Source: a virus. Taken from it: 27,971 nt of DNA. The stretch covers positions 1-27,971 of the IMG/VR virus record IMGVR_UViG_3300037849_000254, one strand, 5' to 3'. Below the pieces are notes generated by a model. That model was given only the letters and a program-made list of their open reading frames with translations. It did not search any database and was not told where the DNA came from. Of the stretch, positions 3,123 through 27,462 are shown piece after piece (within the stretch, counting starts at the first letter, position 1; every line of letters starts with the position of its first letter). A program made the translations under genes and the position numbers.

Positions 3123-4184
3123 ATGGCCGACGTATCTCAACTCGGTTACACGACATTTGGGGATGTAATCAACAACTACTCATCCGCCGATGCTCGCGCG
3201 ATGTTTGTGCAGCCTGCAAAAATTCTGCGGCGCAAGTGCCCGCTGTTGGAGTTTCTTCCGATGGTGGCATCCAACAACGTCATCTCGAATGTGGCCACCC
3301 GCACGGACTACATTCCCACCCCGGCCACTCGCCGGTTCAACGAGTACGCGGCCGTCACGTCGGCCAAGAACACCCAGATCAACGACCCAATTGCCATGTT
3401 CGTCGACTGGGCGGTTCAGGACAAGGAACTGGTAAAGATCCAGAACAGCCCCGAGGAATACATCTCGGACCAGATCGACAATCACGTTGAGGGCTTCGCG
3501 CAGAAACTTGAGTCCGAGGTCATCTACGGCAACATGGTCTCTGATCCGGGCAGCTTCAATGGCCTGGCGACGCGGCTCCACAACACGGCCAACTATCCCA
3601 ACGGCGACACCACTTGGGTGCCAAACGTGTGGGATGGCGGATACGAGTCGGGAAACGGAACCAGCATCTGGATCTTCGAGTTCGGCAAGAACAAGGTGCA
3701 GGCCATCTATCCTGTGAACTCTCCGGCCGGCCTCCAGATCGAAACCCTTGGGGAGCAGACCTGGACCATGCCCACCGCAGTCAACGGGCTTCTGGCGAGC
3801 GCCAGGGCGATTCAGGCGTACGTAACCTACCTGCAATGGAAGATCGGACTTCAGATCGTCGATGAGCGGTGCGTGCAGCGCATTGCCAACATCAACCCGA
3901 CTCCTCTTGCGGCTGGCGGATTCGACGAGAACATTCTCATCCAGGCACTCGGTTACCTGCCCGACCAGGGCGCGGCGCCGGGAACCGTCATTGTGGTGAA
4001 CCGCACCATCATGAATGAGATGAACATCCGCGCCGTCTCGCAGAAGACCAATGGTTACTACACTCAAAACATGGAGTCCGGGGATATCTGGGGATCGCGT
4101 CGCGTGACTCGCTTCCAGGGTATTCCGGTCGTCATGTGCGAGAAGATCCTCAACACCGAACCCACCGTAACAGCGACCACATAA
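3123..4184 (+). CDS. Major capsid protein (HK97-like fold expected)
   Basis: Starts at ATG 3123 after AGGAG at about 3107-3111; 353 residues. It would be the main shell subunit of the icosahedral head. Sequence signs are the N-terminal MADVSQLGYTTFGDVINNYS, the ILRRKCPLLEFLPMVASNN segment near residues 36-54, a long acidic helix (SDQIDNHVEGFAQKLESEVI) typical of the HK97 spine helix, a GSFNGLATRL segment, and a C-terminal SRRVTRFQGIPVVMCEKILN that matches the common end of podoviral capsid proteins (gp7 or Bbp17 type). It follows the scaffold and precedes the cement gene, as in BPP-1-like heads. There is no sign of a fused protease or scaffold. Confidence 0.88.
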   Translation: MADVSQLGYTTFGDVINNYSSADARAMFVQPAKILRRKCPLLEFLPMVASNNVISNVATRTDYIPTPATRRFNEYAAVTSAKNTQINDPIAMFVDWAVQDKELVKIQNSPEEYISDQIDNHVEGFAQKLESEVIYGNMVSDPGSFNGLATRLHNTANYPNGDTTWVPNVWDGGYESGNGTSIWIFEFGKNKVQAIYPVNSPAGLQIETLGEQTWTMPTAVNGLLASARAIQAYVTYLQWKIGLQIVDERCVQRIANINPTPLAAGGFDENILIQALGYLPDQGAAPGTVIVVNRTIMNEMNIRAVSQKTNGYYTQNMESGDIWGSRRVTRFQGIPVVMCEKILNTEPTVTATT

Positions 4185-9765: not shown

Positions 9766-11508
9766 ATGTCCCCGTCTATTCCTACCGTCGTCGCTCCCAC
9801 CCTCACCCCGCCGCCGGAGATGAACCCCCGCATCGCTGGCAGCGTCGGCAACGCCATCTCGGGCGCGGCCGATCAGTTGGCCAGCGTCTCCGACTACGGC
9901 GCGCAGGTTGCTGAACGGATCAAGAAGGCGCAGGACGAAGGCATATTGCTCGGCGCCGAGAACTCAATCGCGGCCGATATGGAACAGGCGCACGCTGGCC
10001 TCGCTAACTGGACCGACTACACGCACGCAGACCAGATGAAACAAGATACGGCGGACAGGATCAGGGACAAATACAGCCAGCAATACGGCAACCGCCCCGA
10101 CCTCTGGCGCTACATCGAACCGTATCTTGGCAAGGAGCTGAATTCCTACAACGGCGTTGTCGATACCAAGGCCGCGCAGCTCACGGTCGAGTACAACAAA
10201 GGCGCGCTGCTCAACTCTCAACTACGCACGGAGAACGAGGCGGCGACAGAGCCTACACTCCCCGGCAAGGAGCAAATTTGGGGAATGCAGGACGACAAAA
10301 TAGACATGATGGTCAAGAACGGGACCATCAGGGCGGACGAGGGGGAAATCCAGAAGAAACTCCTGCGCTCCCGAACCATCTCCGCGGAAGTCGAGCGCGC
10401 GGCCAATCCCCTGAATGCCCCGTCGATCATGGACGACGAGCTGAAGCGGCTCAATGAATACGAGGGAAAAGGGTACGTTGATCCTAAGGAACTCGGGGCC
10501 ATGCGGGATCATCTGGCGACGGCGTACGAGCGGGCTGTCACAAAGCTGGATCGGGTGGACGTGTCTAAAGAAGGAGACGGCATCATTGCGGGGCTGATGA
10601 AAGACCCGACCGTGAAAGATCCAGAGACGGGCAAGACGGACTACCTGAAGGCTGCGCAGAAGGCGGATGAGAATCCCGACATTGGGACCAAGACCAAGAA
10701 GTACATCCGCGAAGAGTTAGAGCAGCGCGACACAGTTCAGAAGCACATTACAAACGAGAGCAATCAAAAGATTCTCGATGAGCTTGCACCACGTCTCTAC
10801 GACACCAAGAATCCGCTCACCTCGGCGGAAGTGAAAAAGCGTGCACTCTTGGCACCGAGCGAGCAGGGCTACATCCCACGCGAGGTTGAGTCGCACTTAC
10901 TGACCAGCCTGGGGCAGATGGAGCGCGAGAACCGTTCGCTGAACATCCAGGCTCGGCAGGAGGCCCGGCAGGAAGCCGAAGATAAGAGTAAAAATATGGC
11001 CTACGACCTCCTGATGAACTCGGGTTCGCTAATCGATCGCTCCGATCTCATCCCCTACATGCTTAAAGGTCTGAGCAAGGGTGATGCCCTGACGGTGTGG
11101 GAGAACAAGCAACTTGCCAAGGATGATGGCTGGCGGTCGGCGGTGGCGCTCATCAACGCATCCCCGCTCTACGACCACAACACCGACGAAGGCAGAACCA
11201 AACTTGCTACCGACACGCTCAACTTTGCCCATACGGTTCAAAACAAGAAGCTGACCGGCGGCCAAATCGTTACCGAGTTGAATAATGAACTGCACCCAAA
11301 GGAGGAGGCGCAGAGACAGCAACAGGTCAAACTCAGTCTGGATAACGTCCACTACTCGTGGTGGGATCTTCTCAGTGGCGGATCCAGCGAAGGCGCGAAG
11401 ATCGACTTTGTTCCTGACTCACAGGCACCTGCCCGGCCTAAGGGCGTCCCCGATGCTGCGCAGTGGAATAAGGAGGCGAAGCAATGGCAACTTCCGCCTC
11501 AGCAATAA
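9766..11508 (+). CDS. Internal virion protein, gp15-like position (580 aa)
   Basis: Starts at ATG 9766 immediately after the previous TAG, with GGAG five bases upstream. The protein is almost entirely helical, charged and free of cysteine, with long Lys/Glu/Gln helices (for example residues 40-90 and 380-420, ENRSLNIQARQEARQEAEDK). Position between gp14-like and gp16-like genes and overall composition suggest the middle component of the DNA-ejection complex, which in T7 (gp15) builds a tube across the periplasm. I see no catalytic motif. Sequence similarity to T7 gp15 itself is not evident to me, so the function is inferred from gene order and composition. The last 25 bases overlap the next gene. 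Confidence 0.65.
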   Translation: MSPSIPTVVAPTLTPPPEMNPRIAGSVGNAISGAADQLASVSDYGAQVAERIKKAQDEGILLGAENSIAADMEQAHAGLANWTDYTHADQMKQDTADRIRDKYSQQYGNRPDLWRYIEPYLGKELNSYNGVVDTKAAQLTVEYNKGALLNSQLRTENEAATEPTLPGKEQIWGMQDDKIDMMVKNGTIRADEGEIQKKLLRSRTISAEVERAANPLNAPSIMDDELKRLNEYEGKGYVDPKELGAMRDHLATAYERAVTKLDRVDVSKEGDGIIAGLMKDPTVKDPETGKTDYLKAAQKADENPDIGTKTKKYIREELEQRDTVQKHITNESNQKILDELAPRLYDTKNPLTSAEVKKRALLAPSEQGYIPREVESHLLTSLGQMERENRSLNIQARQEARQEAEDKSKNMAYDLLMNSGSLIDRSDLIPYMLKGLSKGDALTVWENKQLAKDDGWRSAVALINASPLYDHNTDEGRTKLATDTLNFAHTVQNKKLTGGQIVTELNNELHPKEEAQRQQQVKLSLDNVHYSWWDLLSGGSSEGAKIDFVPDSQAPARPKGVPDAAQWNKEAKQWQLPPQQ

Positions 11509-14500
11509 CTTCATGGGATGCCAGCGGCAAGCCGATCCAATCGGCCAATCCGGCGCCTGTTACGGCTTGGGATGTGCAGGGGCAACCTGTCCGCAATGAA
11601 GTGCCGACGCTGAACAAGGACGAGGCGCAACGGGCAAGCGACGCCCTGATTTACTCGAACCTTACCAACCAGCCACCGAGCTTCACCTACGAGAATCGGG
11701 ACTTGCTGAACAAGGACTTTGGAGAGCGCCTGGGTGCGTATGCGGAGGCGGGCTGGAAGGGATTGACGCAAGATTCGATCATCGGCGAATACCTGCGCGG
11801 CCAGATATCAGGGCCACTGGGGGACGAGGACGAAGTAAGCAAATTCATCGAAGGCTTTGGCCAGATGATCGGCGACTTGCCTGAGTATCTGATCGGCGGC
11901 GGACTAGGCCTTCTCGCCGGCGGAGCTGCGTGTTCCGTCGAGCTACCGGTTGTGGGCACCATCGGGCTCGGGGCTGTGGGCGCGGGGGCGGGAGGATTTG
12001 CGCTGACCGGCGGCTTGCGCCAATGGCTGATCGACAAATACAAGGGTAACGACATCTCAGCATGGGATGAAGTGATGGACGTGCTGAAGGCGACCGGCAA
12101 GAACGCCCTTACCGGCGTCGCGTTCGGGGTCGCTGGAGAAGCTGCGCCGCTGGCCGGCGGGGTTGTCGGCAAGTATTTAGGCCCGCGCGCCTACAAGGTT
12201 GCCGCTGAACTTGCGGCCATGACGACGGTCGGGAGTCTGGTCGAAGGCCAGGTCCCAAGCGCAGGGGACTTCGCCCGCAACGCCGCTCTCGTCGCGCTGA
12301 TGCACGTCACCATCGGTAACCTGCCGTTTGCGAAGAAAGCCGCGCCGGAGTTGCGAGAGAAGGCGATGGACCTCTACGCGCGTGAAGGCGTTCACCCTTC
12401 GGATGTGTCGTCAGAGGCGAGCAAGAGGACCGTGGATGCGCGCCCTACCGATAACCCGATGGAAATCCTGAACAAGATCGATAACGAACTTGCCGGGATC
12501 GCGGGAAAGACGCCGGAAGCCATTGCGGAGTCTGTCCCAAAAGCCGAGACCCCGGCACCGCAAGGGGAATCTCAGACCAGCATCAAGAATGAAACCACCG
12601 AAGCCGAGCGCGCCGAGCGCGGGCTGCCTGAAGTCGAAGTGGAGGCTCGGCAGGTTCCAGCATTCGAAGCGGGGAAGAAGGCTGTCGATGAGGGCCGGAT
12701 CGATCCGCGCGCTCTGGCAAAAGAGCTTGCAAACGATCCCCGCCCCCACACCGATGAAGAGGCTGCGGCGCTACTCTACGATCGAATGCGTCTGCAGAAC
12801 GAGCACGCGGTGGCGATGAACACCATAGAGGCCGCGCGGGCCGCGGGAGATGAAGCGGCGGAGGTTCGAGGCAAGGAGCACCTCAGGCGCGTAGAAGACG
12901 CCATCAACAACAACGACGAAGCAGCTCGGCGTTCCGGTACGGAGACAGGCCGGGCTCTCAACGCGCGCCGGATGATGATCAAGCAGGACTACTCGCTGGC
13001 AAATGTGCTGCAGCGAGCCCGCGCAGCGAGTCCCAACGGGGAGGTGACGCCAGAAGTGCGGAACACGCTTGAAGCCCTCACCAAGCAACTGGATGAGGCC
13101 AACAAGCGGCTGGACGATTATGAGGAGTCGAAGAAACAGACTGCGGCAGAGCAGACGGTTGAGAAGATCAAGCGCCAGGCCCGAGCAAGCACCCGGACCG
13201 CGACCAAAGTAGACCTGAAAACTGAGTACGATTCGCTCCTCAAGGACTTGAACGCCGAGCTACTTGGGAACCTGAGCGCCAATCCCATGCTCAACCCGAA
13301 GCTGTACGAGCTGTTCGGGAAACTGGCCGTCAACCGTATTCACTCCGGCCTGTTGACCATCGAGCAGATAGTGGACGACCTGCATCAGCAGTTACAGGAG
13401 CGCGGCATCTCGAAGCGCGAGATTAGAGATTACATTTCGCAGTACGGTAAGAAGATCGAACTGAGCAAGGATCAGGTCAAAGTCCAGTTGCGCGAGGCGC
13501 GAGCGCAGGGGCGGTTGCTGTCGGCTTTAGAGGATGCGGAGGCCGGAGAGCGACCAGAGAAGAGCGGTCTGCAGCGCGGGCCGGAGTCACAGCGAGTCAA
13601 GGAGCTGCGTCAACAGGTAAGCGATGCCATGCGGGCTGCTGGGCTAAAGGAAACCCCCGAGCAAACTCCAGAATCGCGTCTGAACGCTTACAAGAAGACG
13701 CTCGAAACCAAGATAAAGACTCTCCAAAAGCAACTCGACACCGGAGACTATACCCAGCCAACTCGCAGGCAGACTGTTCTAGACGCGCAGGCTGAAGGTT
13801 TGAAGGCGCAGGCGGAAAAGCTCAAGAGCCAGGTAGACGACGCGATCTACAAGCAGAAACTTGAGGCCCGCACCCCGCTCGAAAAGGGCGCGGCCGTATT
13901 CCAGAAGTGGCGCCGGGCGGTTCTGCTGTCCAGCGTCAATACATTGGGGAAGCTGACTACCGCTGCCATGCTGCGGTTCGGGACCACGCCTATTGAGGAG
14001 CTTGTAGGCGGGGTCCTGTCGCACATTCCCGGCGTGTCTGATATCGCTGAGAAAGCTCCGCGTGAGGGCGGAGGCCTCAACATCTCAGCGGAAGCCAAGG
14101 CGTTCGGCCAGTTCTTTGAGAAGGCAACGCGCGACGACATCGTAGAAGCGCTCAGGACGGGCAAAACCTCACTTGATTATCTCTACGGGAAAAAGAGCAC
14201 ACTTCCCCCTGAGGCACTGGATTTTTTCGGCCATCTCCACGGTGCTCTCAAGGTGTTGCCTAAGCGGGCTGAGTTCTTCCGCTCGCTCGAAAAGCGGGCG
14301 CAGTGGGCGCTCGACAATCACCTGGACATCAACGACCCCAAGGTGCAGGCGACTATGGCGGCGGATGCGTATATCGACGCGAACCGCGCCATCTTCATGC
14401 AGGAGAACTTCATCAATACGGGCTTCAGGATGCTGATGAACTACTTCCATTCGCAGGGGTTGAGCGGCAAGGCTGCGGAATTCATGATTCAGACCGTGCT

Positions 14501-15221
14501 ACCGATCGTGAAGGTGCCAACAAACATCGTCGCGGAGACCGGCACGTTTACGTTCGGCACGGTGACAGGCAGCATTGACGCGCTGCGCGTGCTGGTCAAG
14601 ACAGATGGACTCAAGAATCTGACCGGCCATGAGGCTGACAACATTATGCGGTCGCTCAAAAAGGGAAGCATCGGGCTTGCTGTGCTGGCCATGGGCTACT
14701 ATGCAGGAACATCGTCGGGATTCATTCAGTCGACTGGGTTCTATCAGCCCGGAGACGAGAAGAAAGAGAAGAAGCCGGAGACGCTGACCATCGGCGGTGT
14801 GGATCTCCCGCCTTGGCTGCAGCACACTCCAGTGGGCTTGGTCTTCGAGATGGGGGCGACCATGCGTCGAGTAAACGACGCATACACCATGAAGGGCAAG
14901 AGTGGCGGGTTCGTTGGCGGGGCAACTTCGGCTGGGCTGGGTGCGGCGAAAAAGATTCCTTTTCTTGAGCAGTCGACGCGGCTGGCGGAAGCCACACGCA
15001 CGTCGGATTCTGCGGGCTTGTTTCTTGATGATCTGATTCAGAGCCTCATCATTCCGCCCGACGTGCGCAAGCTGGCGGAGATGACGGACGATGGGACGAA
15101 GCGCAAGCCGACTGATCTTAAGGAAACGATTGAGAATGCTGTACCGGGCTTGCGTGAGAATGTACCGGTGGGCGGACAGAAGCGCGAGAAGAAGTTCTCA
15201 ATCAGAGGAGCAGCCCGCTAA
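11484..15221 (+). CDS. Large internal virion/DNA-ejection protein, gp16-like (1245 aa)
   Basis: Starts at ATG 11484 after AAGGAGG, overlapping the previous gene by 25 bases. The length is close to T7 gp16 (1318 aa). Residues about 125-190 form a Gly/Ala-rich hydrophobic region (IGGGLGLLAGGAACSVELPV, GLGAVGAGAGGFALTGGL), with another at about 212-235, suited to membrane insertion. Residues about 420-780 are polar helices and likely coiled coil. Near residues 965-1020, FRMLMNYFHSQGLSG and TVLPIVKVPTNIVAETG resemble the l..ivPFv.TP.Ni segment of large polyvalent/ejection proteins, followed by a hydrophobic helix at about 1058-1075 (IGLAVLAMGYYAGTSSGF). I do not see the lytic-transglycosylase active site that T7 gp16 carries at its N-terminus. 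It has a single cysteine (AACSVE). Confidence 0.75.
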   Translation: MATSASAITSWDASGKPIQSANPAPVTAWDVQGQPVRNEVPTLNKDEAQRASDALIYSNLTNQPPSFTYENRDLLNKDFGERLGAYAEAGWKGLTQDSIIGEYLRGQISGPLGDEDEVSKFIEGFGQMIGDLPEYLIGGGLGLLAGGAACSVELPVVGTIGLGAVGAGAGGFALTGGLRQWLIDKYKGNDISAWDEVMDVLKATGKNALTGVAFGVAGEAAPLAGGVVGKYLGPRAYKVAAELAAMTTVGSLVEGQVPSAGDFARNAALVALMHVTIGNLPFAKKAAPELREKAMDLYAREGVHPSDVSSEASKRTVDARPTDNPMEILNKIDNELAGIAGKTPEAIAESVPKAETPAPQGESQTSIKNETTEAERAERGLPEVEVEARQVPAFEAGKKAVDEGRIDPRALAKELANDPRPHTDEEAAALLYDRMRLQNEHAVAMNTIEAARAAGDEAAEVRGKEHLRRVEDAINNNDEAARRSGTETGRALNARRMMIKQDYSLANVLQRARAASPNGEVTPEVRNTLEALTKQLDEANKRLDDYEESKKQTAAEQTVEKIKRQARASTRTATKVDLKTEYDSLLKDLNAELLGNLSANPMLNPKLYELFGKLAVNRIHSGLLTIEQIVDDLHQQLQERGISKREIRDYISQYGKKIELSKDQVKVQLREARAQGRLLSALEDAEAGERPEKSGLQRGPESQRVKELRQQVSDAMRAAGLKETPEQTPESRLNAYKKTLETKIKTLQKQLDTGDYTQPTRRQTVLDAQAEGLKAQAEKLKSQVDDAIYKQKLEARTPLEKGAAVFQKWRRAVLLSSVNTLGKLTTAAMLRFGTTPIEELVGGVLSHIPGVSDIAEKAPREGGGLNISAEAKAFGQFFEKATRDDIVEALRTGKTSLDYLYGKKSTLPPEALDFFGHLHGALKVLPKRAEFFRSLEKRAQWALDNHLDINDPKVQATMAADAYIDANRAIFMQENFINTGFRMLMNYFHSQGLSGKAAEFMIQTVLPIVKVPTNIVAETGTFTFGTVTGSIDALRVLVKTDGLKNLTGHEADNIMRSLKKGSIGLAVLAMGYYAGTSSGFIQSTGFYQPGDEKKEKKPETLTIGGVDLPPWLQHTPVGLVFEMGATMRRVNDAYTMKGKSGGFVGGATSAGLGAAKKIPFLEQSTRLAEATRTSDSAGLFLDDLIQSLIIPPDVRKLAEMTDDGTKRKPTDLKETIENAVPGLRENVPVGGQKREKKFSIRGAAR

Positions 15222-15325
15222 TGTGCATCAGGCGACGGAAGATCGACAATCTATGGCCGCTATGGGAATTAGGTCTACTTGATGACGCTTGGCCCCCTGA
15301 AGAGGTCGGGCACTGCAATGACTGA
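15221..15325 (+). CDS. Possible 34-aa mini-gene coupling the ejection protein to the ATP-grasp gene
   Basis: The ATG shares its A with the TAA of the preceding gene (TAATG), and the TGA at 15323-15325 lies just inside the next gene, which starts at 15318. GAGGAG at 15205-15210 lies 10 bases upstream. The product begins MCIRRRKIDNLWPLWELG and ends EEVGHCND: basic first, acidic later, with two Trp and two Cys. This fills an otherwise empty 96-base gap exactly and with overlaps at both ends, which is what tightly packed phage operons do. The peptide has no known function to me. It could instead be a chance reading frame. Confidence 0.45.
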   Translation: MCIRRRKIDNLWPLWELGLLDDAWPPEEVGHCND

Positions 15326-16574
15326 GTTTAAGACCAAAAGCGTGGCAATCGTCGACAACGGCATGTTTGCGGAACTCGCGCGCACGTTGTCCGCCTCCTT
15401 CGGCGAAGTCTTCTACACGTCCCCGTGGGTCGCAGACTATCCATCCTCCTACAACACCGAGCAAGGAGAGGGGTTCGCGGACTTTGAGCGCGTGCCGGAT
15501 ATCTGGGGCATCGTCGACGATGTGGACCTGTTTGTCTTCACGGATCTCCATCAAGGGCCGCTGCAGGAATACCTGGCCGAGAAGGGTAAGCGTGTCTGGG
15601 GTTCCCGCACCGGTGAACAGATCGAAGAGGATCGCGTTGACGCCAAAGCCCATTTTGAAACGCTCGGCATCCCGCAGGCGCCGTACGAAGTCGTCAAGGG
15701 CATGGACGCGCTGCGGCGCTACATCAAGAGCCGCGGAAACGATAAACTCTGGATCAAGATCAGCCTGACGCGCAACGATACCGAGACATTCTGCGTTGAG
15801 GGATACGAGCAGGCCAAGAATCGGCTGGACGACTTTCAGGCCAAGTTTGGGCCTATGTCGGAGTACCGGGAGTTTGTGGTCGAGGATCACCTGCCCGACA
15901 CGCTGGACCTCGCCATCGATACCTACTCGATCGACGGCCAGTATCCCTCGCGTGCGCTTCTGGGGACAGAACAGAAGGACGAGGGTTATATCTGTGCCGT
16001 CAAGGACTGGAAGCAGTTGCCACCCAACCTTGTCGACATCTACACCAAGCTCGCGCCCACGCTCGAGCAGTACCAATATCGGCAATTCCTCTCGCTCGAG
16101 TCGCGCGTGGCTGAAAAGAAGATCTGGCTGGGCGATCCGTGCTGTCGTGCCGGCTCCCCGCCGTTCGAACTTGAATTAAACATGCTCAAGAACCTGCCGG
16201 AGATCCTGTGGGAGGGCGCGGACGGGAAACTGATTGAGCCGGATTACGCCGGTAAATACGGATTTGAGATACTGGTGCAAAGCCCATGGGTCAATGAGCA
16301 TCCCTTGCTGGTCGAATTCCCCGAGAAGTACCGTGACTCGATCAAGTTCCGGCGGGCGACGCAGTATCCAGACGGGCTCTGGATCATGCCCCAGAAAGAC
16401 TCGCCGGTGTTCGCTGCGATAGTTACCTTCGGGGATTCCCCGGATGCCTGCTTTGCGGAGGCGGAGGAGATTGCGAAGGAGATCCACGGTTTCAAAGTGG
16501 ACGCCTTTGTCGGCAGCATGGAAGGCTTAAAGAAAAACCTCAAGGAATTTAGCAAATGGGGGATACGATTCTAA
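15318..16574 (+). CDS. ATP-grasp-like ligase (PurD-related architecture)
   Basis: I choose ATG 15318 ([15 protein letters not shown]) because AAGAGG lies about 12 bases upstream; the ATG at 15282 has no such site. The product has 418 residues. It begins with a small alpha/beta domain (residues 1-95, containing [20 protein letters not shown]) followed by a [20 protein letters not shown] helix and [11 protein letters not shown], matching the pre-ATP-grasp to ATP-grasp junction of PurD-type enzymes. KLWIKIS would hold the nucleotide-binding lysine strand and [20 protein letters not shown] the domain's acidic strand. The metal-binding end (PurD: N.R.GDPE) appears as [17 protein letters not shown], so substrate and metal binding may differ. 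It would join a carboxylate to an amine using ATP; the substrate is unknown. It is unusual between ejection and fibre genes. Confidence 0.6.
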
Positions 16575-16584
16575 TGGAGAGCCT

Positions 16585-19500
16585 ATGAAACGCTGGATTC
16601 TCTTGATGCCGTTGGTTTTGCTACTGAATGCGATGGCTCACGCCCAGGTCACGGGGACGGCCTCGACGGCGACGTTCAACTGCACTGCATCGACCGGGCC
16701 GTTCCCTTTCAGGTTCCCGGCGCACGATGCGGCCGCTCTTCAGGTGATCGAGATCGCTCCCGGTTCGCTTCCGGGCGTGATGACCATCGTTACCGGATGG
16801 ACCGCGACGCCGGTGAACAACTCGTTTGCCAATGGCGGAAGCATTACCCTTGTGACCCCGTGCCCGTCGGGATACACGCTCACGATCGCGCGCGTGACAG
16901 AACAGACGCAACTCACTCAGTACACGCCCAACATGCCGGCGCTGTACGCTAATTTCCAGAACAATATCGATCAGCTGACGACGAATACGCAGGATGCCTC
17001 GCGCGCGCTGCAGGTGCAGGTGGGGCAGCTCTCTGGGGGCGGTTCCGCGAGCGTGACGCAGACTCCACTCGGCCAATTCCTCAATCTCACATTCCCATCG
17101 GCGGGGTTGCCTGGCACGAACCCCACGTTTAACGGCATCCTCTCCGGCCCGAAGATCTCCCTCTCCGGCGACGGCCTCGTGACCACGGGCAACCTCTTCA
17201 ACACCGTCACGGCCTTTCCCAGTATCTACAACGCCCCGCACACGCTGAATCTCTACTCCGACTTCATTACCGGCAGCCAAGATAACTACATCCTGGAGGG
17301 CACGCAGATCACCGAAAACGACCTGACGGATGGCTGGACGCCGGGCACCATTTTTAATCAAATAGTCGCAATGCACATGAACAGCAGCGGCGACACGATC
17401 GCGCGTCTTGTCGAGGTGCTGTGCAAGGGCAGTAGTTCGGTCCAGAACGAAGGCTGCAAGGACAGCCACATTGTCACGACCGAGTTTCCGACCATCTTCC
17501 AGGGCACGCTTAACTCGATCCCGCTGTGCGCAGGAGGGAACTGCACCTTCAGCATGACGCAGACGCAGGGCTATAGCTCGACCGTCAACGGAGTCACGTA
17601 TCTGGGGCCCGGCGCGAAAATGCACCTTATCGATCTCACGAATGCAATCACGGCCGGCTACATCACGGGATACTCCGGCTTCGGCTATTCCAACTTCACC
17701 GCCTCCGGGACGGCATTCTCGACGCCCAACGGCACCAGCGCCATAACGACCTCGACAACCAGCATCGGCAGCACCACCGCGGCGACCGTGAATGGCACCA
17801 TTACTCTCACCAGCCCATCGGGATTTGCGGTGTCGGGAACCAATCTCATCTGCCTCTTTGATCCCACCACCGCCGATTACGTCTGGACGTGCGCCCACAT
17901 CACGAACCTGACCGGCAGCGTGGCGACGATTGATTACATCCCGGAGGGGTACCTGTTCCCGGCAGGGAGCACGGTTTCGCAGGGCGGATTGGCCGGCTGG
18001 GGATTCAGTCTCGACTGGGATTCGCACTGCGCGGCGGTGTCGCTCGGTTGCCCCGGCGGTCCGAACGGCTATCCGCTTCCGCCTGACAACGCATACAACG
18101 GCATCGTCCGCATGGACTATCCAGTGGTCGGCAACACCTCAGCGACCAGCATTGAAGTCTACGGCTTTGAGGGATCGCAGACGCCTTCGAGCGGCGGGAC
18201 ATCGACCACTGGCGTCTATCATTTGTTCCCCCAGGTCATCGTCTACGACCCCTATAACTACACGACCAAGAAGCTCGACGCGAGCGCAGTTCAGACCAGC
18301 CCGATCAACCAGGGCATGACGTTCTCCGCGAGCGACGTGATTGAGCAGCCGAACTACTTCTCATTGCGGGCGACTGCGCAGACGATCTACGCATGGAAGG
18401 CGCAGGGATCGCCGAACGCGCTCCCGACTGGGATTAGCCTTACTCTTGGCGGCAATTACCGCGATGGCTCGCAAGCAATGCCGATCTACAATTTCAACAA
18501 TCCCTGCCTCTATGCCGGAATTCCTTCCGGCGTGCAGCCCCTCATGCCGTGGCCCAACAATTCTGCGGGCGCATCGGTGGGATGCTCCGGAAGCGCGGGG
18601 GTCTACGGCACTGGACAGGGCCAATACGGCGCGCCGCAGGGGGTGCGATTCGGCGGGGCTGTTTCGAGCGGCGTCACGCTGGGCCTCCCGGTCCTCTCGG
18701 TCGGCTACAACGGCATCGGCAAAGCGGCGCTGTTTGTGGGCGCTGATCTCACGACCGCGATGGCGAATCAGTGGGCCACTGCTTCCCCGGTGCTGGGACA
18801 CGTCAACAACCTGGGCGGCGCAACTCCTGGAGAGGATTTCGTCAACTATTACCCGGCTCAGGACTTGTGGGATGTGACCGCTGGGTCCACCGATCCCTAC
18901 GGAACCGGCGCGACTCACTACTATTTCAGCCCCACGGCGCTGACGGTGCCGAATTTGGTCATCTCTGGAACCTGCACCGGATGCGGCGCGAGCCCGTTCA
19001 ATTACCTTGTGAATCAGAGCTCGACCCTGCAGCCGATTCAGATCAGCACCGTGGCGTCGGGGTCTGATTATCTGTGGGTCAATTCTTTCGGCGGGAGTGC
19101 AGGCTGGACTTTCCAGAACAACACCGCAGCCAACACTTGGACCTCTTCGCTTTTCAACATGGACGCTTCCTATGACGCCATATTCAGTGGGTGCGCTCCC
19201 GGCCAGACAAGCGTGCCCGCGTCGGGCCCTTGCCGGGTCCTGTTCGGCATCCTGGGCAACGGCACTAATTACACCAACAATCGCGGCTATTATCTGAGTG
19301 TTCCGGTTGAGCCAGTTGGCAATCCTACGGTCACGCTGCCGCTTGCGACAGCGAATGCCTATATCTTTGCACTGCCCACCGGCGCGTCGGCCAATGCGAT
19401 TCCGACCGCAGGCACGGCTGGCTTCGGCGGCACATCGTCCTGCTCCGACAACGGCACGATCTTCGCCTGCAGTGAGCCCGTGCAAGCGCCGTCCTTTGTT

Positions 19501-19776
19501 GCCACCGGCGGCACGCCCACAACGGTAAATTGCTCCACATCGGGCACGGCAATCTTCCTGCAATCCCTGACCGGAACCAATGACAAGAAGGTGGTGGTCA
19601 CGTTTGCGGCGTGTCTGGGGACGGCCTCCTACACGTTCCCAACCGCGTTCACGGTGCAGCCGTCTGTATTCGCCAGCAACGATGTGGCGGCAACGCTGGT
19701 AACTTCGCGGTCCACCACGGCCATCACGGTCACCGGGACGACTTCGACGGGAACACTATTTTTGGAAGGGTATTAG
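16585..19776 (+). CDS. Tail fibre with T7 gp17-like N-terminal domain behind a signal peptide (1063 aa)
   Basis: Starts at ATG 16585 with GGAGAG upstream, 10 bases after the ATP-grasp stop. Residues 1-20 form a Sec-type signal peptide (Lys-Arg, then a Leu-rich core, then AMAHA before Q21). Residues about 27-145 resemble the virion-binding head of T7-type fibres: [40 protein letters not shown] and [20 protein letters not shown], matching the f.FpF.f....l.V...GG.v.l..p...G..ltI.R.t...Q...y....f.a...e...D pattern. The rest is beta-rich, Gly/Ser/Thr/Asn-rich and not recognised. The C-terminus ends with a strand-rich knob ([18 protein letters not shown]). About 20 cysteines are present. A signal peptide in front of a virion-attached fibre domain is unexpected. 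The stop is TAG. Confidence 0.78.
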
Positions 19777-19779
19777 CCC

Positions 19780-22383
19780 ATGAAAAGATTCTTGCTCTTC
19801 TTGCTGTTCGCCTCTCCGCTCGCTGCCCAGATCAGCAATCCGGGCGTGACGTATGTCGGTTCTGCCCCATCAGGCGCGTGCTCACAGGCTCCTCCGGTGC
19901 AGGTGCTCAACTCATCGGGCGCGATTTACACGTGCGACAACGGGACGTGGGCGGTGCAGGGAGGCGGTGGAGGCTCGGGCACGGTAACCAGCGTTGCACT
20001 TACCGGCAGCGCGAACCTCTTTTCTTCGACGCCGGGGACCGCAGTCACGACAGCAGGAAACCTGAATCTCGACTCGCAACTCCTCGCGCAAGCAGCGAAC
20101 TGCATCCTCGCTGGCCCAGCTTCAGGGAGCGCCGCAGCACCAACTTGCCGCGCTTTGGTTTCCGGCGACATCCCAAACAACGCAGCGAACACAACCGGGA
20201 CAGCGGGGAACGTGACTGCAACCAGCAACTCTACCCTGACCACGCTCTCCGCATTATCGCTTCCTTATTCGCAGGTGACTGGAGGCCCGAGTGGAACGGT
20301 GACATCGTTCTCGGCAGGTAACCTATCGCCACTGTTCACTTCTTCGGTAGCGACTTCGACCACGACCCCCGCTCTCACGTTCGCGCTTTCAAACGCTGCG
20401 CAAAACTCCGTCTTAGCGGGTCCGGCCACTGGAGGGGCGGGAGCGCCAAGCTACCAGACCGCTCCAACAATTAGCGCGGCAAATATGACGAATTTTCCGG
20501 CGTCTGCCGCATATACTCCGCTAACATACCTCGCTTATGGCGATTCAATCACCATCGCCACAAACGGCGCGGTTACTTATCCCAACAACTCATATGTAGC
20601 TCGTATCGCAGCTCAACTCGGCATCCCTGGCGGATCAGTCACAAATCAGGCGGTGAGCGGCGCAATGGCTGGCGACGTTATGAGTCTTCAGGTTCTTCCC
20701 AACGACGCTCCAGCGGAAACGGCACAGCAACCCTTGCGGACTCTGCTCATCAGCACAAACGAGGCTAGCATCAAAGGTGCTGGTGCTTACGAAGCGACGT
20801 TCAACACTATCGATCAGGCTATCTTAGCTTGGGAGTCGATTGCCGCTCCATATAAGGTGATGGGCTCGACGGTGGTTGGTTCAACCACGGGGACCTGCGC
20901 GCAGGACAATACTTATGCGAATGCCCTAGGCGTGCTCTGTACATCGAATGCGGCTACCGCGCCGTTTAGTATCACTACTACGGGCGGACCAATTTACATC
21001 TGGTATCGCTGCATCGACAGTGACGCGGGGACGTGGACTTACGCCATCGACGGCGGATCAACGGTTGCCGTGACTACCGCTCTCACCACGGCGATTGCGA
21101 CAACCAATGGCACCACAGCTTCTGTGTGTTTGATCCGGGTGCCTGCGAGCGCCGCTGCCCACACGCTCTCTTTTGTAAAAACAAGCACGGGCGGAAACAT
21201 GGGGATCATTGGGGTCGGGACCGTCTCAAATTCTCTTGTTAATTCTCAGCCCTACATCATTGCCGGAGACACGCCTTCAGAATTGAATGGTGCTGCTGCG
21301 TCTGCGGTCGCGGCATATCGTGCGGACATCGTTGCGAACGTTGCCCTGCTTGCGGGGGATGGATTAAATATCCAATTAAAATACATCAGCAAGTATCTGA
21401 TCGCCACGACCGCCGCATCCGATATGTTCAATACTCTTCACCCTAACGATCAAGGCCACGGTGAAATGGCGGCTGCGTTTCTAGGGGGCTCCGGCTTGTT
21501 TCCGGCAACATCTGGGGCTAGTCCCTATTACAATGCGCAGAACGCTTCTTATGTTCCGGGCGCGGGGAATCAGGTAGTCAGTATCGCCGCTACCAGCGGG
21601 ACCGTCACGCTAAATGTTCAAGCATCGGGTACTGTTTACTGGATTGTCAACAGAAGTAGTTCCACGAATCTTACGCTGGCTGCGGGTTCGGGAGTTACCA
21701 TAAACGGTGCTGCTACCATACCGCCGCTCGGGGTGGCAGTTGCTATCTCTACAGGCTCCTCTTGGGCGATTGGTCCAGCTTCCAATGCAATCACTACCTT
21801 ATATCAAGGGCCAAGCGCCGGATATACCATTGCGCCGGGAAATCAAGTTACGGCGATGAACTGTATCGCTAACTGCACACTGGCTATTGGCACCGGAACA
21901 TACGGGCAAGTTGAGTATGTTGCGAACAGGAGTGCCACTTATACAGTAACCGTCTCGGGGACGATAAGCTCCGGTCCCACCAGCATTCCTCCATTGGGCG
22001 GTGCGATCTATGTTAGTTCTAATTCTGCTTGGTGGGGCGTAGCTGTTGGTGCGCAGAATGGAATCTACACTCCCAACGGAACGCCGACTTACACAGCGGG
22101 AACCAACGTCACATCCGTGGGGTGCGCCTCTGGTTATACCTGCACGAACACTCGCGGCGAACTCACCATCGTCGGCGGAACAGCCACGACAGGAACGATT
22201 GCCACCCTCAACTTCTCAGCCACGCTAACCGCCGCGCCGGGCCTGTGCATAGTGACTCAAGCGGGCGGTGCAAGCCTGTTCGGCATCGGCCACGGCACGC
22301 CCGCCACGACGGGATTCACCATCACCGCCGGAGTCAGCGTCGCCACATCGACCGTCACTGTGGACTACTCATGCCAGCCCTAA
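19780..22383 (+). CDS. Tail fibre/spike with SGNH (GDSL) hydrolase domain and signal peptide (867 aa)
   Basis: Starts at ATG 19780 with GGAAGG upstream. Residues 1-16 are a short signal peptide (MKRFLLFLLFASPLAA) before Q17. Residues about 67-240 carry two fibre-type repeats (LLAQAANCILAGPASGSAAA; ALSNAAQNSVLAGPATGGAG). An SGNH hydrolase domain follows: YGDSIT with the expected catalytic Ser at about 254-258, SGAMAGDV at about 294-301, LISTNEAS with the oxyanion Asn at about 322-329, and FNTLHPNDQGH at about 551-561 with the catalytic His. The usual Asp three residues before that His is Asn here. A beta-rich insert (ATAPFSITTTGGPIYIWYRC, then TWTYAIDGGSTVAVTT) lies between the blocks. The C-terminal part has a duplicated beta-unit and a terminal knob with Cys pairs. 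The likely role is deacetylation of surface polysaccharide. Confidence 0.75.
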   Translation: MKRFLLFLLFASPLAAQISNPGVTYVGSAPSGACSQAPPVQVLNSSGAIYTCDNGTWAVQGGGGGSGTVTSVALTGSANLFSSTPGTAVTTAGNLNLDSQLLAQAANCILAGPASGSAAAPTCRALVSGDIPNNAANTTGTAGNVTATSNSTLTTLSALSLPYSQVTGGPSGTVTSFSAGNLSPLFTSSVATSTTTPALTFALSNAAQNSVLAGPATGGAGAPSYQTAPTISAANMTNFPASAAYTPLTYLAYGDSITIATNGAVTYPNNSYVARIAAQLGIPGGSVTNQAVSGAMAGDVMSLQVLPNDAPAETAQQPLRTLLISTNEASIKGAGAYEATFNTIDQAILAWESIAAPYKVMGSTVVGSTTGTCAQDNTYANALGVLCTSNAATAPFSITTTGGPIYIWYRCIDSDAGTWTYAIDGGSTVAVTTALTTAIATTNGTTASVCLIRVPASAAAHTLSFVKTSTGGNMGIIGVGTVSNSLVNSQPYIIAGDTPSELNGAAASAVAAYRADIVANVALLAGDGLNIQLKYISKYLIATTAASDMFNTLHPNDQGHGEMAAAFLGGSGLFPATSGASPYYNAQNASYVPGAGNQVVSIAATSGTVTLNVQASGTVYWIVNRSSSTNLTLAAGSGVTINGAATIPPLGVAVAISTGSSWAIGPASNAITTLYQGPSAGYTIAPGNQVTAMNCIANCTLAIGTGTYGQVEYVANRSATYTVTVSGTISSGPTSIPPLGGAIYVSSNSAWWGVAVGAQNGIYTPNGTPTYTAGTNVTSVGCASGYTCTNTRGELTIVGGTATTGTIATLNFSATLTAAPGLCIVTQAGGASLFGIGHGTPATTGFTITAGVSVATSTVTVDYSCQP
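19978..20498 (+). repeat. Two fibre-type repeats in the SGNH protein
   Basis: Both units begin GTVTS and run through an LL or LF strand and A..N.(I/V)LAGPA.G.....P to a short linker ending in P.N or MTNF. The first unit is at about 19978-20182 and the second at about 20293-20498. This pattern is common in fibres and supports a virion-associated role. Confidence 0.65.
21555..22044 (+). repeat. Duplicated beta-unit in the C-terminal part of the SGNH protein
   Basis: Two units share GNQV, a strand ending in (Y/V).(V/A)NRS, then T.S/AG, an IPPLG(V/G)A strand and a S..W.(I/V) end. Unit one spans about 21555-21775 and unit two about 21830-22044. The DNA has diverged, so the duplication is old. Confidence 0.6.
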
Positions 22384-25300
22384 AATGGCTCGCCCTCATC
22401 CTGCTCGCTCTGCCTCTTGCCGCGCAGGAGCCGACCATCACGCTCAATGGCACCGCGTACACCATGCAGCCGCACCCGCGCGTGTTCCTCAATGCGGCAC
22501 TGAATGCGCGAGTGGCTTATTCTGGCGGACTGGCACCGAAGGCGGTCTCAAGCAATCCGGCGTGGGTAGCCATGACGACGCGAGCCGGGACAGCTTGCTC
22601 CATCTATCCCGATCCCTCGACCACGCACAACGACGATTCAAATTATGTGGACGGAACCATTGCCGAGATGTACGCGCAGTGGTGGTATTCGGATAACAGC
22701 CAGACCGCGTGCTTGGCGAAGGCGCTCTACCTCGTCAACAACATGCAGCAGTATGTGCCGTTTGTCTGCAACGAAGGCGTCATGGACTGCATCCACGGCG
22801 GCAACGGCTACTGGGTGGGAAGCTACGGCCCAGCGTACTATATGCCCAACTGGGTCTTCGCATACGAGCTGGTGCGGGGCCAGATGACGACGCTTCAGCA
22901 GCAGACGTTTGCCGACAAGTGGCTGAACGATAAAGCGGCATGGGGAGGAATCAATGGCTCGCCAAGCACCGGCTGCACGAATCCCACTCTGGTTGGAACA
23001 ACATCTGTCTCGATTAACTCATCAGGAGTTGTTACAGCTAGTGCGCCATATTTTGGTTCAGGGCAAACACTTCAAGTTGGAGACTGGATCGCCTCCAGCT
23101 CTAACGACTTCACCGCCGTCATCGCCTCCGTCTCGTCCTCCACGGTCGCCACGATAGAGCAGGATCAGTGGAGCAATTTCTCCGGCTACAGTGGCACGCT
23201 CTATAGTCGCCGCGGCGGGTGGTCGGCGGGTGATTGCGGATGGTTCTGGGTGGCAAAGCACGACTGGTACGCGCCCGCGTCGATCATCGGATCTTCTGTC
23301 TATCCATCAGGCGCAGGCAACGGCGGCGTGAACGGGACCGGCAGCTTCAACCTGGTGCTCGCCCAGACCTATGGACCCATGGCTGCGCTGCTGTCGCTGG
23401 CTGACGATGATGTGAATTTCTCCAGCCGCACCTCGGTCGAGATCACGGCCCTCTATAACTACTGGCACACCACGACTTGGACCGGCCTGAACGAGTTCAA
23501 CTACACCGGGTTCACGCCGACAGGATCGGTTTACGGGATCACGCGCGCCTGGGCGATGTGGCCCCTGACGGCGTTCAGTGTGGTCAATTCGGTCGTGAGT
23601 CCGCCTCCGCTGCTGAACGGCCTGTGGGCGAAGAACATGACGCACCACACGTATCTGGCGACCTTCCCGTCATGCCCCGCGCAGGAGTGGGAGTTCGGGC
23701 AGAGCTTCTCGCTGAATTCGAGCTACAACAGCTATCTGCCGAATGCGATCTATATCCCGTCCCTGATTACGATGTTTCAGGGAACGAATGAAGGCCAGTA
23801 TCTGAACTGGTGGTCACAAAATCTCTGGCAGACTTGCCCGAATGGGGGTTATTCTGGCAACACACCGGGTACAAACCTGATGTGGAATTCATCGACCTTG
23901 GGGAGCAATCAGTATGGCGGGACAAGTCAAGCGTGGGCGTATCTTTATATGGACTCGGCTTACGCGACTAACTCTGCACTTCCTACTGGGAGTGTCGATA
24001 ACTGTAGCGATGCTGGGTGTTCTGGGGCTGTTGCCACATCTGTTGCGCTTCCTATGGCAGGTCTTATTTCTCGTACCGGCTATAGTTCTATTACCGACAC
24101 CCTCACAGAATTCCTAGCGATCTCCGCCCCGTTCAACGACCACACCACGCCCTATAACGGGATCGGGCAGCCGGGCGATATCCGCATCTGGAAGGGTGCG
24201 GCGCTGCTGGGCGATGATTACACGACATGGAACAATGGCGGCATCAGCGCCAGCGATATCTCGATCGGGTCAGACTCCTATTTCCCGTCAGCGCCTGTCT
24301 ACACGGTACTGATGCCCGCCGGAGCCAATGACCCAAGTAACCGGTACACGTATGCCTTGGTGGACATGACCCAAAGTTACTCGTCTTCGGCGCATGTGAC
24401 GGGGGCGGAGCGATATTTTGTCCACTTCAAGAAGCCTGGCACGCAAGACTTCGTCGTGGTCTATGATTACGTCAAGACATCGACTGCCGAGCAGGTCATT
24501 CAGTATTCGCACTATCCTCAACCGACGCATACCACGCTGACCTGCCCTACCGTTGCTGAATCCTTCCCCGGAACAGGACACTCAGATGCCACACAGCTCC
24601 TCACCGCATTCCTCCAGCCAGCAGGAAGCAACACCACTTACTGCTACAGCAACAACACGAACGGTACTTACGCTGGAGGGAACGGAAATACATTTCGAGT
24701 CTCTAATTGCGGGAGTGTCACCGGAAGTTCTTGCGCAGCAACTAGCACTTACGAGTCTGCGACAGTGCACATGCCGGTTGCAGGTAGCGGCAACTCAATG
24801 CCGAGCACTGAAACTCTCGCAACTATTGACGGAAATCACCGAGGAATTGAAATCGATGGAAGCTCTTCTAAAGTTGCTGTTTTCCCCATCGGCATCAGCG
24901 AGCCCTGCTTCACCAGCGCCACCTACACCACCGCCGTGCCCTCAACAGCCCAGCAGCTTGTCGCCGGACTCTGCACCGGAAGTTATAATGTCACGGTGGG
25001 AGGAAGCCCGGTTGTCTCTGGGGTTGCAGTATCAGCAGGGAACAACAGCCTCTACTTCGAATACGGGTCAGGCGCAGTTGCGGTCTCGCTCGCGTCAGCA
25101 ACCCTAACCCTTCCCTCCCCCAGCTGCCCCGCCGGAACGCAATACGTCGCATATGGAGGCTGCACTCTGGCAGCTTCCGGCGGCACCCCGCCTTACACCT
25201 ACGCATGGGTCAATCCCACCACCAGCTACGCATCCATCCCTGAGGGCCTGAGCGTCAACGCATCGACGGGGGCAATCTCGGGCACGGTCTACGGGCAGGG

Positions 25301-27197
25301 CGGCTACGTCACGCAATTCAAGGCGACGGACGCGGCGTCGAACACCGCTACCACGACCGTGACATTTGCCATCGCAGGCAACAATACGCTGGGGGGCTGT
25401 ACCCTGTTCCCGGCAACCTCCGCCTTCCACATCAACGTGTCGGGGTTGTCGGTCGATACCAGCCCAGCGGCCGCGATTCAATCCGGCTACCTCTCGTCGA
25501 CCATCAAGCCTCTGTTTGGGGCCGCGCCGCAGTCGAGCAATTTCCCGAATGGGATCCCGTTCCTGGTCGTGCCCTACAACCAGACTGACGTGAGCGTGAC
25601 CACGACCGTTTACCAGTCCTACTTCACTTCCGCGCCCTTCCCGCCTTACGCCCCGATCGAGTCAACCTCGAATGCGGCTGGCACGAGCGACAACGACAAC
25701 CACACGCTGATTGTGCAGACGACCGGGAGCGGTAGCCCGTACTGCCAGCTCTGGGAGATGTGGCAGGGGCTGCCGCCGTACACCAACGGGCTCAGCGGCA
25801 ATGCCTGGAAGGATTCGAGCAACGCCTACTGGGACAACCTGGGGTCGACAGGGTCTGGCGCCTACGGGATGCTTCCGCAGGGGAACGGCTCAACGGATGC
25901 CGCCGGCCTGCCCGTCACGCCCCTGCTGGTGAACGCGGACGAGGTGATTGGCACCGGAACCCCATCTGCCCCTACCGGAGCCGTCCAGCACCCAATACGC
26001 TTCACCGTGAGCACAACGCTGGGGGCTTACGTCTGGCCGGCAACGGCGAAGGCTGGGAGCGGGACATGCACAGGTGGGTATTCGGACGGCAATCATCAAC
26101 TCATGCAGGCCAATCCGCCGGCAAGCTGCACCACCACCATGCCCATGGGGGAGATTTACCGGCTCAAGTCGTCGGTGACCAGCCCTTCATGCGCGAGTTC
26201 GAGTCCGCAGTCGGCCATCATCATCACCGGCCTCAGGAACTACGGCATCATCCTGGCGGACAATGGCGAGACGGGCGGAATCATCGGGACACCCGACTCG
26301 CGCTGGAACGATGCGGATCTGGCCTGCCTCAGCAACCTGACACTGACGGACTTTGAGCCGGTAAATGTCGGGAGTCTGATCGCCAACCTGCCCAGCGGGT
26401 GCCCTGGGACCAACAACGCCTGCGAGCCGCTGGCCAGCTACGAAACCACCGCGGGCGCGACTTACGCCATCACGGTAGCCTACGCGGGCGCTGGATCGGG
26501 CACGACCAGCGGGACCAACGTGCCCGGCTCGGGGCTGGCTCCTGGCACATCCTGGACTGCTACCGGGACGCCAGCCACGGGCTCAAATTGCGTGTCGATG
26601 ACAGACACCTTGGGCGGAACGCCTTCAGGTTGCTCGGATTCCGGGAGGATGCCGAGCTCGAATGGGGTGGTCACGACCACCTTTGCGCTCAACTCCTACA
26701 CCGTCAGCACATCCACAACCGGGACAGGGGCCATCTCAGGGTGCGCGGGGAGCCAACTTTACGGCGCGTCCTGGACCTGCAATGAAACCCCTGGAGCGGG
26801 CTACTCGTTCTCCTCGTGGGGCGGAACATGCGGGTGCACCGGAAGCGCGACCTCCTGCACCAAGACTCAGGGTGCCGCAAACTGCACCGTAACAGCGACT
26901 TTCGCCGCGACCACGTATACACTGAGCACATCGATTACGGGCTCGGGAACGCTGACGGGGACGAACTGCCCGGCATCTGGCCTGACGGTGGGTACGGGCT
27001 GGAGCTGCACGGCAAGCCCAAGTGCTGGCTACACGCTGTCATCGCTGAGCGACACTTGCGGGGGAACGGTGGTGGTACCGGTGGACTCAGGAACGATGCC
27101 AGCCAGCAACTGCGCCGTGAGCGTGATCTTTGCCGCAACCACGTCCGGGCGCGGGGTGCTGAGCAATGGAACGCTGAATTCTGGAACGTTGCCTTGA
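22371..27197 (+). CDS. 1608-aa mosaic exported/tail protein: polysaccharide-lyase-like, Ig-like, secreted-protein domain, InlB-like repeats
   Basis: I choose ATG 22371, which overlaps the previous gene by 13 bases and gives a signal peptide (MPALKWLALILLALPLAA, then Q19). Residues 30-200 (PHPRVFL; GGNGYWVGSYGPAYYMPNWV) and about 660-840 (VTGAERYFVHFKKPGTQDFV; NHRGIEIDGSSSKVAVFP) resemble heparinase II/III- or alginate-lyase-like proteins, an alpha-toroid followed by a beta-sandwich. Catalytic residues cannot be assigned. A small beta-module (about 198-275) interrupts the first part. Residues about 910-1001 look like a putative Ig domain (GGTPPYTYAW, GLSVNASTGAISGT). Residues about 1003-1343 match a secreted-protein domain by IPFLVVP, AAGLPVTPLLVNADEV, RFTVSTTLGAYVWPATA and GIILADNG, PDSRWND. 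Two or three InlB-like repeats end it. About 38 cysteines are present. Likely depolymerase or exported host-modifying protein. Confidence 0.65.
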   Translation: MPALKWLALILLALPLAAQEPTITLNGTAYTMQPHPRVFLNAALNARVAYSGGLAPKAVSSNPAWVAMTTRAGTACSIYPDPSTTHNDDSNYVDGTIAEMYAQWWYSDNSQTACLAKALYLVNNMQQYVPFVCNEGVMDCIHGGNGYWVGSYGPAYYMPNWVFAYELVRGQMTTLQQQTFADKWLNDKAAWGGINGSPSTGCTNPTLVGTTSVSINSSGVVTASAPYFGSGQTLQVGDWIASSSNDFTAVIASVSSSTVATIEQDQWSNFSGYSGTLYSRRGGWSAGDCGWFWVAKHDWYAPASIIGSSVYPSGAGNGGVNGTGSFNLVLAQTYGPMAALLSLADDDVNFSSRTSVEITALYNYWHTTTWTGLNEFNYTGFTPTGSVYGITRAWAMWPLTAFSVVNSVVSPPPLLNGLWAKNMTHHTYLATFPSCPAQEWEFGQSFSLNSSYNSYLPNAIYIPSLITMFQGTNEGQYLNWWSQNLWQTCPNGGYSGNTPGTNLMWNSSTLGSNQYGGTSQAWAYLYMDSAYATNSALPTGSVDNCSDAGCSGAVATSVALPMAGLISRTGYSSITDTLTEFLAISAPFNDHTTPYNGIGQPGDIRIWKGAALLGDDYTTWNNGGISASDISIGSDSYFPSAPVYTVLMPAGANDPSNRYTYALVDMTQSYSSSAHVTGAERYFVHFKKPGTQDFVVVYDYVKTSTAEQVIQYSHYPQPTHTTLTCPTVAESFPGTGHSDATQLLTAFLQPAGSNTTYCYSNNTNGTYAGGNGNTFRVSNCGSVTGSSCAATSTYESATVHMPVAGSGNSMPSTETLATIDGNHRGIEIDGSSSKVAVFPIGISEPCFTSATYTTAVPSTAQQLVAGLCTGSYNVTVGGSPVVSGVAVSAGNNSLYFEYGSGAVAVSLASATLTLPSPSCPAGTQYVAYGGCTLAASGGTPPYTYAWVNPTTSYASIPEGLSVNASTGAISGTVYGQGGYVTQFKATDAASNTATTTVTFAIAGNNTLGGCTLFPATSAFHINVSGLSVDTSPAAAIQSGYLSSTIKPLFGAAPQSSNFPNGIPFLVVPYNQTDVSVTTTVYQSYFTSAPFPPYAPIESTSNAAGTSDNDNHTLIVQTTGSGSPYCQLWEMWQGLPPYTNGLSGNAWKDSSNAYWDNLGSTGSGAYGMLPQGNGSTDAAGLPVTPLLVNADEVIGTGTPSAPTGAVQHPIRFTVSTTLGAYVWPATAKAGSGTCTGGYSDGNHQLMQANPPASCTTTMPMGEIYRLKSSVTSPSCASSSPQSAIIITGLRNYGIILADNGETGGIIGTPDSRWNDADLACLSNLTLTDFEPVNVGSLIANLPSGCPGTNNACEPLASYETTAGATYAITVAYAGAGSGTTSGTNVPGSGLAPGTSWTATGTPATGSNCVSMTDTLGGTPSGCSDSGRMPSSNGVVTTTFALNSYTVSTSTTGTGAISGCAGSQLYGASWTCNETPGAGYSFSSWGGTCGCTGSATSCTKTQGAANCTVTATFAATTYTLSTSITGSGTLTGTNCPASGLTVGTGWSCTASPSAGYTLSSLSDTCGGTVVVPVDSGTMPASNCAVSVIFAATTSGRGVLSNGTLNSGTLP
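26697..27143 (+). repeat. Tandem InlB-like beta-repeats at the C-terminus
   Basis: Repeat A (26697-26915) starts YTVSTSTTGTGAISG and repeat B (26916-27143) starts YTLSTSITGSGTLTG. Both continue with a W.C strand, a P.AGY.(F/L)SS segment, CG and a closing (T/S)(A/V).FAATT. A more diverged unit may precede them at about 26460-26696 (YAITVAYAGAGSGTTSG). Such repeats are typical of surface proteins of bacteria. Confidence 0.75.
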
Positions 27198-27222: not shown

Positions 27223-27462
27223 ATGACCTGGAAACGCGGTAGTCAATCTGTCGAGGTTGAGCTCTCCAGACTCCAGGAAAAGGCTGAAAGCTGGTCAGAG
27301 GACCTGGATGGGGAGGCCGGATTGATACGACTATTTAGAGAAGAGCGCGCCGAGCGCAAGGGAACCATGAAGATCTTCCAGGGGCTGGCGTGGGTCTTTG
27401 CCGCATTGATCGGAGCCCAGGCATTCCTGGACGTCGCCAAAGGTTTGCATTGGATTCCGTAA
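27223..27462 (+). CDS. Small one-helix membrane protein, probable holin (79 aa)
   Basis: Starts at ATG 27223 with GAGGGGAGAG upstream. Residues 1-50 are charged and helical (VEVELSRLQEKAESW, IRLFREERAERKGTMK), and residues about 51-71 form one membrane segment (IFQGLAWVFAALIGAQAFLD). This layout, a cytoplasmic helix then one C-terminal membrane helix, is like XhlA-type haemolysin/holin proteins, and T7 also places its holin (gp17.5) right after the tail fibre. Holin is therefore the best call, but the family match is by layout only. No endolysin or spanin gene is visible nearby. Confidence 0.55.
   Translation: MTWKRGSQSVEVELSRLQEKAESWSEDLDGEAGLIRLFREERAERKGTMKIFQGLAWVFAALIGAQAFLDVAKGLHWIP

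Follow-up and report, generated by a model that had tools for sequence, protein, structure and literature searches.

Cysteine-rich tail fibre genes with predicted Sec-type leaders in a group of uncultivated soil phages, and a proposed periplasmic route to the virion

The window, by which we mean the whole 27,971-nucleotide stretch of DNA that was analyzed, is an IMG/VR record fragment of an uncultivated phage (IMGVR_UViG_3300037849_000254). It carries a head-tail block of the T7 type, composed of a portal, a scaffold- or protease-like gene, a major head protein, the tail proteins phrog_394 and phrog_376, and an internal virion protein. Downstream of this block lie a gene at 15318-16574 and then three genes, here termed fib1, fib2, and fib3. 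The features considered below are:

3123..4184, + strand: major head protein (phrog_212), which defines the phage group
15318..16574, + strand: conserved gene that relatives carry directly upstream of the leader-bearing module; resembles an ATP-grasp enzyme, by eye only
16585..19776, + strand: fib1, tail fibre of 1063 aa with a Sec-type leader, a T7-gp17-like anchor domain, and 20 Cys forming 10 adjacent pairs
16585..16644, + strand: fib1 leader of 20 aa, predicted cut AHA/Q, conserved in 20 homologues
16645..17046, + strand: tail-anchor domain of fib1, in which Cys33 (16681-16683) and Cys93 (16861-16863) are invariant
19450..19773, + strand: tip domain of fib1, which contains Cys983 and Cys1010; its homologue at the tip of the leaderless fibre L091 is free of Cys
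19780..22383, + strand: fib2, second leader-bearing fibre gene, 867 aa, with 14 Cys forming 7 adjacent pairs
19780..19827, + strand: fib2 leader of 16 aa, predicted cut LAA/Q, from the rule-based leader test
22371..27197, + strand: fib3, third leader-bearing gene, 1608 aa, with 38 Cys and C-terminal Flg_new_2 (divergent InlB B-repeat) units
22371..22424, + strand: fib3 leader of 18 aa, predicted cut LAA/Q, from the rule-based leader test
27223..27462, + strand: small protein with a hydrophobic stretch at its C-terminus, holin- or spanin-like by eye only

The gene at 15318-16574 is kept at 50-84% identity in relatives (L004 and G001-G007); searches of Pfam and PHROG gave no match. The small protein at 27223-27462, for which family searches returned no confident match, sits where relatives carry lysis genes. 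Residues 252-336 of fib2 are GDSL hydrolase-like, by a Pfam match under the curated cut-off, and the body of fib3 beyond its C-terminal repeats had no match in Pfam, PDB, phage, or viral-contig searches. The portal gene of the window is split into two ORFs, 3-602 and 690-1712, which align with neighbouring stretches of phrog_332 (positions 56-211 and 249-547), and the break in frame between them may be a sequencing error or real. Elsewhere in the group, the L033 record (G010:C1:1132-2187) has one in-frame TAA within the frame of its major head protein.

An earlier, sequence-only reading of this DNA had described three ORFs with Sec-type leaders. That description stands: each ORF lies where it had been placed, and each protein has a basic start, a hydrophobic core, and Ala just before the predicted cut, with Q as the next residue (for fib3, MPALKWLALILLALPLAA/Q). 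Using a leader test based on a hand-made rule for the n-, h-, and c-regions and on heuristic gene calls, all three of fib1, fib2, and fib3 passed (3/3), and none of the 14 other phage genes of the window did. When the rule was applied to six-frame ORFs of the window, 2/111 passed, namely fib1 and fib2; fib3 is missing from this count because its longest ORF is called from a start further upstream, and we read fib3 from its own ATG. Sequences resembling ribosome sites precede fib1 (GGAGAG) and fib2 (GGAAGGG). As fib3 is preceded by a weak site only and its start overlaps the fib2 stop, it is probably translationally coupled to fib2. Permutation of the N-terminal residues proved a weak test of the signals and was set aside, as 10-33% of shuffled leaders still pass; the rule is thus driven by hydrophobic composition and not by residue order, and the case for export rests on conservation among homologues and on the cysteine evidence.

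Searching for close relatives by the fib1 N-terminus on its own gave no match, and alignment queries recovered about 20 homologues, yielding a set of 20 distinct leader-bearing forms of the fib1 anchor domain with the window counted. The leader was present in all 20, answering the earlier call to examine its conservation in related contigs, and spans 18-22 aa before the T7-gp17-like anchor domain. Judged by rule only, these N-termini have the features expected for Sec and signal peptidase I, including a basic n-region, a hydrophobic core, and small residues at -3 and -1; Ala occupies -1 in 19/20, a small residue occupies -3 in most, and A-x-A is common. In 18/20 of the fibres, T-[V/I] follows directly after the predicted cut, the exceptions being Q-V in the window and A-V in L016, and most leaderless fibres start M-T-[V/I/L]. 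Met is usually removed from proteins with Met-Thr starts, so that signal cleavage on one side and Met removal on the other would leave leader-bearing and leaderless fibres with the same N-terminus. This match between predicted N-termini favours real cleavage and a preserved tail-binding role.

Ordinary phage fibre profiles begin at the end of the leader, with position 3 of phrog_30017 aligning with fib1 residue 22. Among the 12 homologues scanned, anchor-domain profile phrog_1640 was found in all 12 and phrog_5510 in 11, and Pfam PF03906 gave weak matches in 2/12. An AlphaFold model of the anchor domain (mean pLDDT 71, with the beta part at about 90) had podovirus tail-fibre or tail-complex chains as all of its top 18 PDB matches, including Carin1, LME-1, Kp7, and T7 gp17. 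Both profile and fold confirm the T7-gp17-like domain that had been proposed to follow the fib1 signal. Fibre bodies are swapped among the 20 homologues, but all keep the tail-anchor domain, whose Cys33 and Cys93 are present in 20/20 leader forms versus 0/9 leaderless forms.

Leaders are concentrated in the fibre modules of related phages. In eight related records, with fibre-module genes counted from at least 150 aa and the other genes taken from that strand, 22/23 fibre-module genes versus 5/121 other genes carry a leader once starts are corrected. Naive start calls gave 18/23 versus 5/121 (Fisher p 2.6e-14, a value that overstates independence because the homologues share ancestry). Three of the five naive misses, G000 22371, G006 24146, and G003 18500, were wrong starts and all have leaders. 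The leader-like start of G002 30083 (MRRLFLVLILILWPSTKEAQ) failed the rule and was counted as a leader by eye; the G007 fibre is the sole clearly leaderless gene among the 23. The L104 record carries two different leader-bearing fibres (6796-8922 and 11593-17352), both with the gp17-like anchor domain. A second leader-bearing family of approximately 175 aa with two invariant Cys also occurs within fibre modules (alignment A4; members L065:16044-16574, L040:5664-6185, L016:5010-5522, L029:730-1284, and L104:10178-10705). Its invariant residues are C25 and C52, and one of five models, of low confidence (mean pLDDT 63.6), has strands at 24-34 and 43-53; an antiparallel hairpin of these strands would place C25 opposite C52. 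The L029 member has an insertion that brings its own extra Cys pair. Its members may act on the fibres as periplasmic adaptors or chaperones.

The cysteines of the mature proteins offer a test of export that is independent of the leader. Median Cys content was 1.85% in leader-bearing gp17-like fibres versus 0.39% in their leaderless homologues, and stood at 0.58% in the cytoplasmic virion proteins of the leader-fibre phages. The large internal core-like protein (window 11484-15221 and relatives) has 0 or 1 Cys in 982-1459 aa in the seven records with the gene called. An even number of Cys was found in 30/38 leader genes (one-sided p 0.0002), and the share of spacing that falls inside Cys pairs was 0.26, with 0.55 expected. 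Adjacent pairing was detected in fib1 (10 pairs, p 0.0005), fib2 (7 pairs, p 0.002), and fib3 (38 Cys, p 0.0145); the combined p of 3e-30 is not to be taken literally, as the sequences are related. Control genes of the same phages showed no pairing, with even Cys numbers in 33/62 and a pair spacing of 0.63 versus 0.60 expected. As the leaderless fibres of phiV10 and BUCT554 carry 13 Cys, Cys content alone is not diagnostic. The pattern in the leader fibres resembles that of disulfide-bonded proteins and suggests that their mature forms would suit an oxidising compartment.

Leaderless relatives serve as natural experiments, and in three matched cases leader and Cys are absent together. The head protein of G007/L041 is 52% identical to that of the window (other relatives, 51-64%), and its fibre anchor is 66-68% identical to the closest leader homologues. 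This fibre is leaderless, has a strong ribosome site and both anchor Cys replaced, and lacks Cys throughout its 358 aa. That the L041 start reflects a shifted frame or a missed leader was ruled out by the strong ribosome site, the lack of a leader in the three upstream frames, and the disappearance of the Cys. The core-gene tree places G007 as sister to the leader-bearing G006 (100/100) and nests it among leader-bearing phages, making loss of the leader the simplest account of these sequences; the anchor tree alone leaves the placement of G007 unresolved. The second case involves L091 and L096, which have in common another N-terminal domain at 49% identity: L096 combines a leader with 8 Cys, while L091 has no leader and 0 Cys in 948 aa. 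In the third, the tip domains of fib1 and L091 are 42% identical and the C983/C1010 pair is missing from L091. Signal-free homologues with the same fibre domain had been named beforehand as grounds for rejecting export. Such homologues do exist, but as the close leaderless relative has also lost every Cys, the joint loss counts in favour of export and not against it.

Leader-bearing, Cys-rich fibre runs are also found in L099, L100, and L102, records without a match to the head protein of the window, of which L100 and L102 carry the contractile-tail baseplate genes phrog_6 and phrog_120. In Tunturi_1 (PP887698), an isolated podovirus of the acidobacterium Tunturiibacter psychrotolerans X5P2, five leader-bearing fibre-region genes are clustered upstream of the endolysin, the four long ones having 10-32 Cys, and the other structural genes examined fail the leader test. 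Tunturi_2 (PP885685), another isolate from Tunturiibacter, has the same gene order. No leaders were found among the structural genes examined of Tunturi_3, which shares a host strain with Tunturi_1, or of Tunturi_4, ruling out leader fibres as a feature of all Acidobacteriota phages. The text of the Tunturi phage paper does not mention the leaders. Tunturi_1 has no head-protein match to the relatives of the window and hence belongs to a different podovirus lineage. One of its fibres is 30% identical to a G006 leader fibre and its endolysin is homologous to that of the relatives, and these two likenesses are the sole basis on which we infer Acidobacteriota hosts for the group of the window.

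Taken together, the leaders and the paired cysteines make Sec export of these fibres very likely, and the anchor domain makes their attachment to the virion likely. We propose, as probable overall, a route in which export and cleavage of the fibres are followed by disulfide stapling in the periplasm and by joining to the tail at or after lysis, with cleavage, disulfide formation, and late attachment as inferred steps. Under this proposal, genuine tail fibre or tailspike proteins would be taken up by the host Sec pathway and lose a leader of about 16-22 aa to signal peptidase. They would then fold in the periplasm, where their many closely spaced Cys pairs would be oxidised to disulfides, as heads and tails are assembled in the cytoplasm. 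At lysis the fibres would meet the tails and the T7-gp17-like domain of fib1 would dock, and fib2 and fib3, in which no virion anchor was recognised, may attach to fib1 or the tail or serve as associated enzymes. The earlier suggestion of export signals, including one on a virion-binding protein, is strengthened by these results, and of the explanations then offered the best supported is that the fibres would attach after lysis or outside the membrane. Somewhat more tentatively, though still on the favourable side of even, we extend the proposal to a set of tailed phages, both podoviruses and contractile-tailed ones, that probably infect Acidobacteriota and whose whole adsorption apparatus would be periplasmic and disulfide-stapled and whose virions would be finished at or after lysis.

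The main competing account accepts export but places the proteins off the virion, as enzymes or receptor-binding decoys that are produced and secreted ahead of lysis and that degrade host surface polymers for progeny escape or block superinfection, the anchor domain being a leftover or a trimerisation aid. Leaders and paired Cys would suit any secreted protein, fib2 has its GDSL hydrolase-like stretch, and some modules have four or more leader genes, beyond the needs of an adsorption apparatus. We nevertheless regard this account as unlikely, if the most serious of the alternatives: the anchor domain is conserved in 20 homologues despite swapped bodies, the predicted cut restores an ordinary fibre N-terminus, and no substitute leaderless fibre gene was seen, by heuristic gene calls, in near-complete relatives.

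Retention of the leader, as a hydrophobic anchor or SAR-like segment tethering the fibres to the membrane or within the particle, appears improbable. It draws on the strong hydrophobic core of all the leaders and on the signal-anchor-release segments used by phage endolysins (PMC6116005). However, SAR segments are defined by the lack of a conserved cleavage site, and these leaders have Ala at -1 in 19/20 and a small -3 residue in most; the predicted cut falls at the point that corresponds to the start of leaderless fibres, and without it some 20 surplus residues would stay at the tail-binding end. The hydrophobic-anchor option raised in the earlier reading is disfavoured on the same grounds, the -1 Ala and the normal fibre N-terminus left by the cut. 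Least probable is that the leaders arise by chance, as hydrophobic N-termini without meaning, or from misplaced start calls, with translation beginning downstream of them. There is an internal Met at fib1 residue 17 and a nearby Met in some homologues, and 10-33% of composition-matched shuffles of the leaders satisfy the rule, but the internal Met is not conserved, ribosome-site-like sequence precedes the leader start in most homologues, the bias towards fibre-module genes (22/23 versus 5/121) is steep, and the Cys pairing is independent evidence.

The proposed export and late docking differ from known systems in several respects. The textbook view of tailed phages places their entire assembly in the cytoplasm. 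Filamentous phages of the M13 type have coat proteins that are synthesized with signal peptides and assemble outside the cytoplasm, but these phages are non-lytic filaments extruded at the membrane, whereas here a lytic tailed phage would have cytoplasmic heads and tails. In the open-licence papers searched, we found no report of Sec-exported, late-docking tail fibres in tailed phages. Lys44 of fOg44 and other endolysins are phage late proteins sent via the host Sec pathway with cleavage of the signal peptide (PMC6116005), but they are lysis enzymes and not virion parts, while the cargo here would be the adsorption apparatus. In T4, particles that are complete except for their fibres can still acquire them (PMC3004832). 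The closest known relatives are the T7 gp17-like fibres (phrog_1640, phrog_5510, PF03906; 7BOZ, Carin1 8CK1, phiV10), which share the N-terminal tail-anchor domain by profile and fold, the place after tail and internal virion genes, and swapped C-terminal bodies. Known members begin directly at the anchor domain, whereas in the fib1 family a Sec-type leader of 18-22 aa comes first, the anchor has an invariant Cys pair, and the body is Cys-rich and pair-spaced.

Annotation pipelines that read a signal peptide as the sign of a host gene would misjudge the leader-fibre genes. As Tunturi_1, with leader fibres, and Tunturi_3, with none, share a host strain, a controlled test of the proposed route is possible. 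If correct, this route would add a second compartment to tailed-phage assembly and would explain how phages afford stable, Cys-rich extracellular fibres; the infected cell would then hold free fibres outside its cytoplasm, which could bind neighbouring cells or block superinfection.
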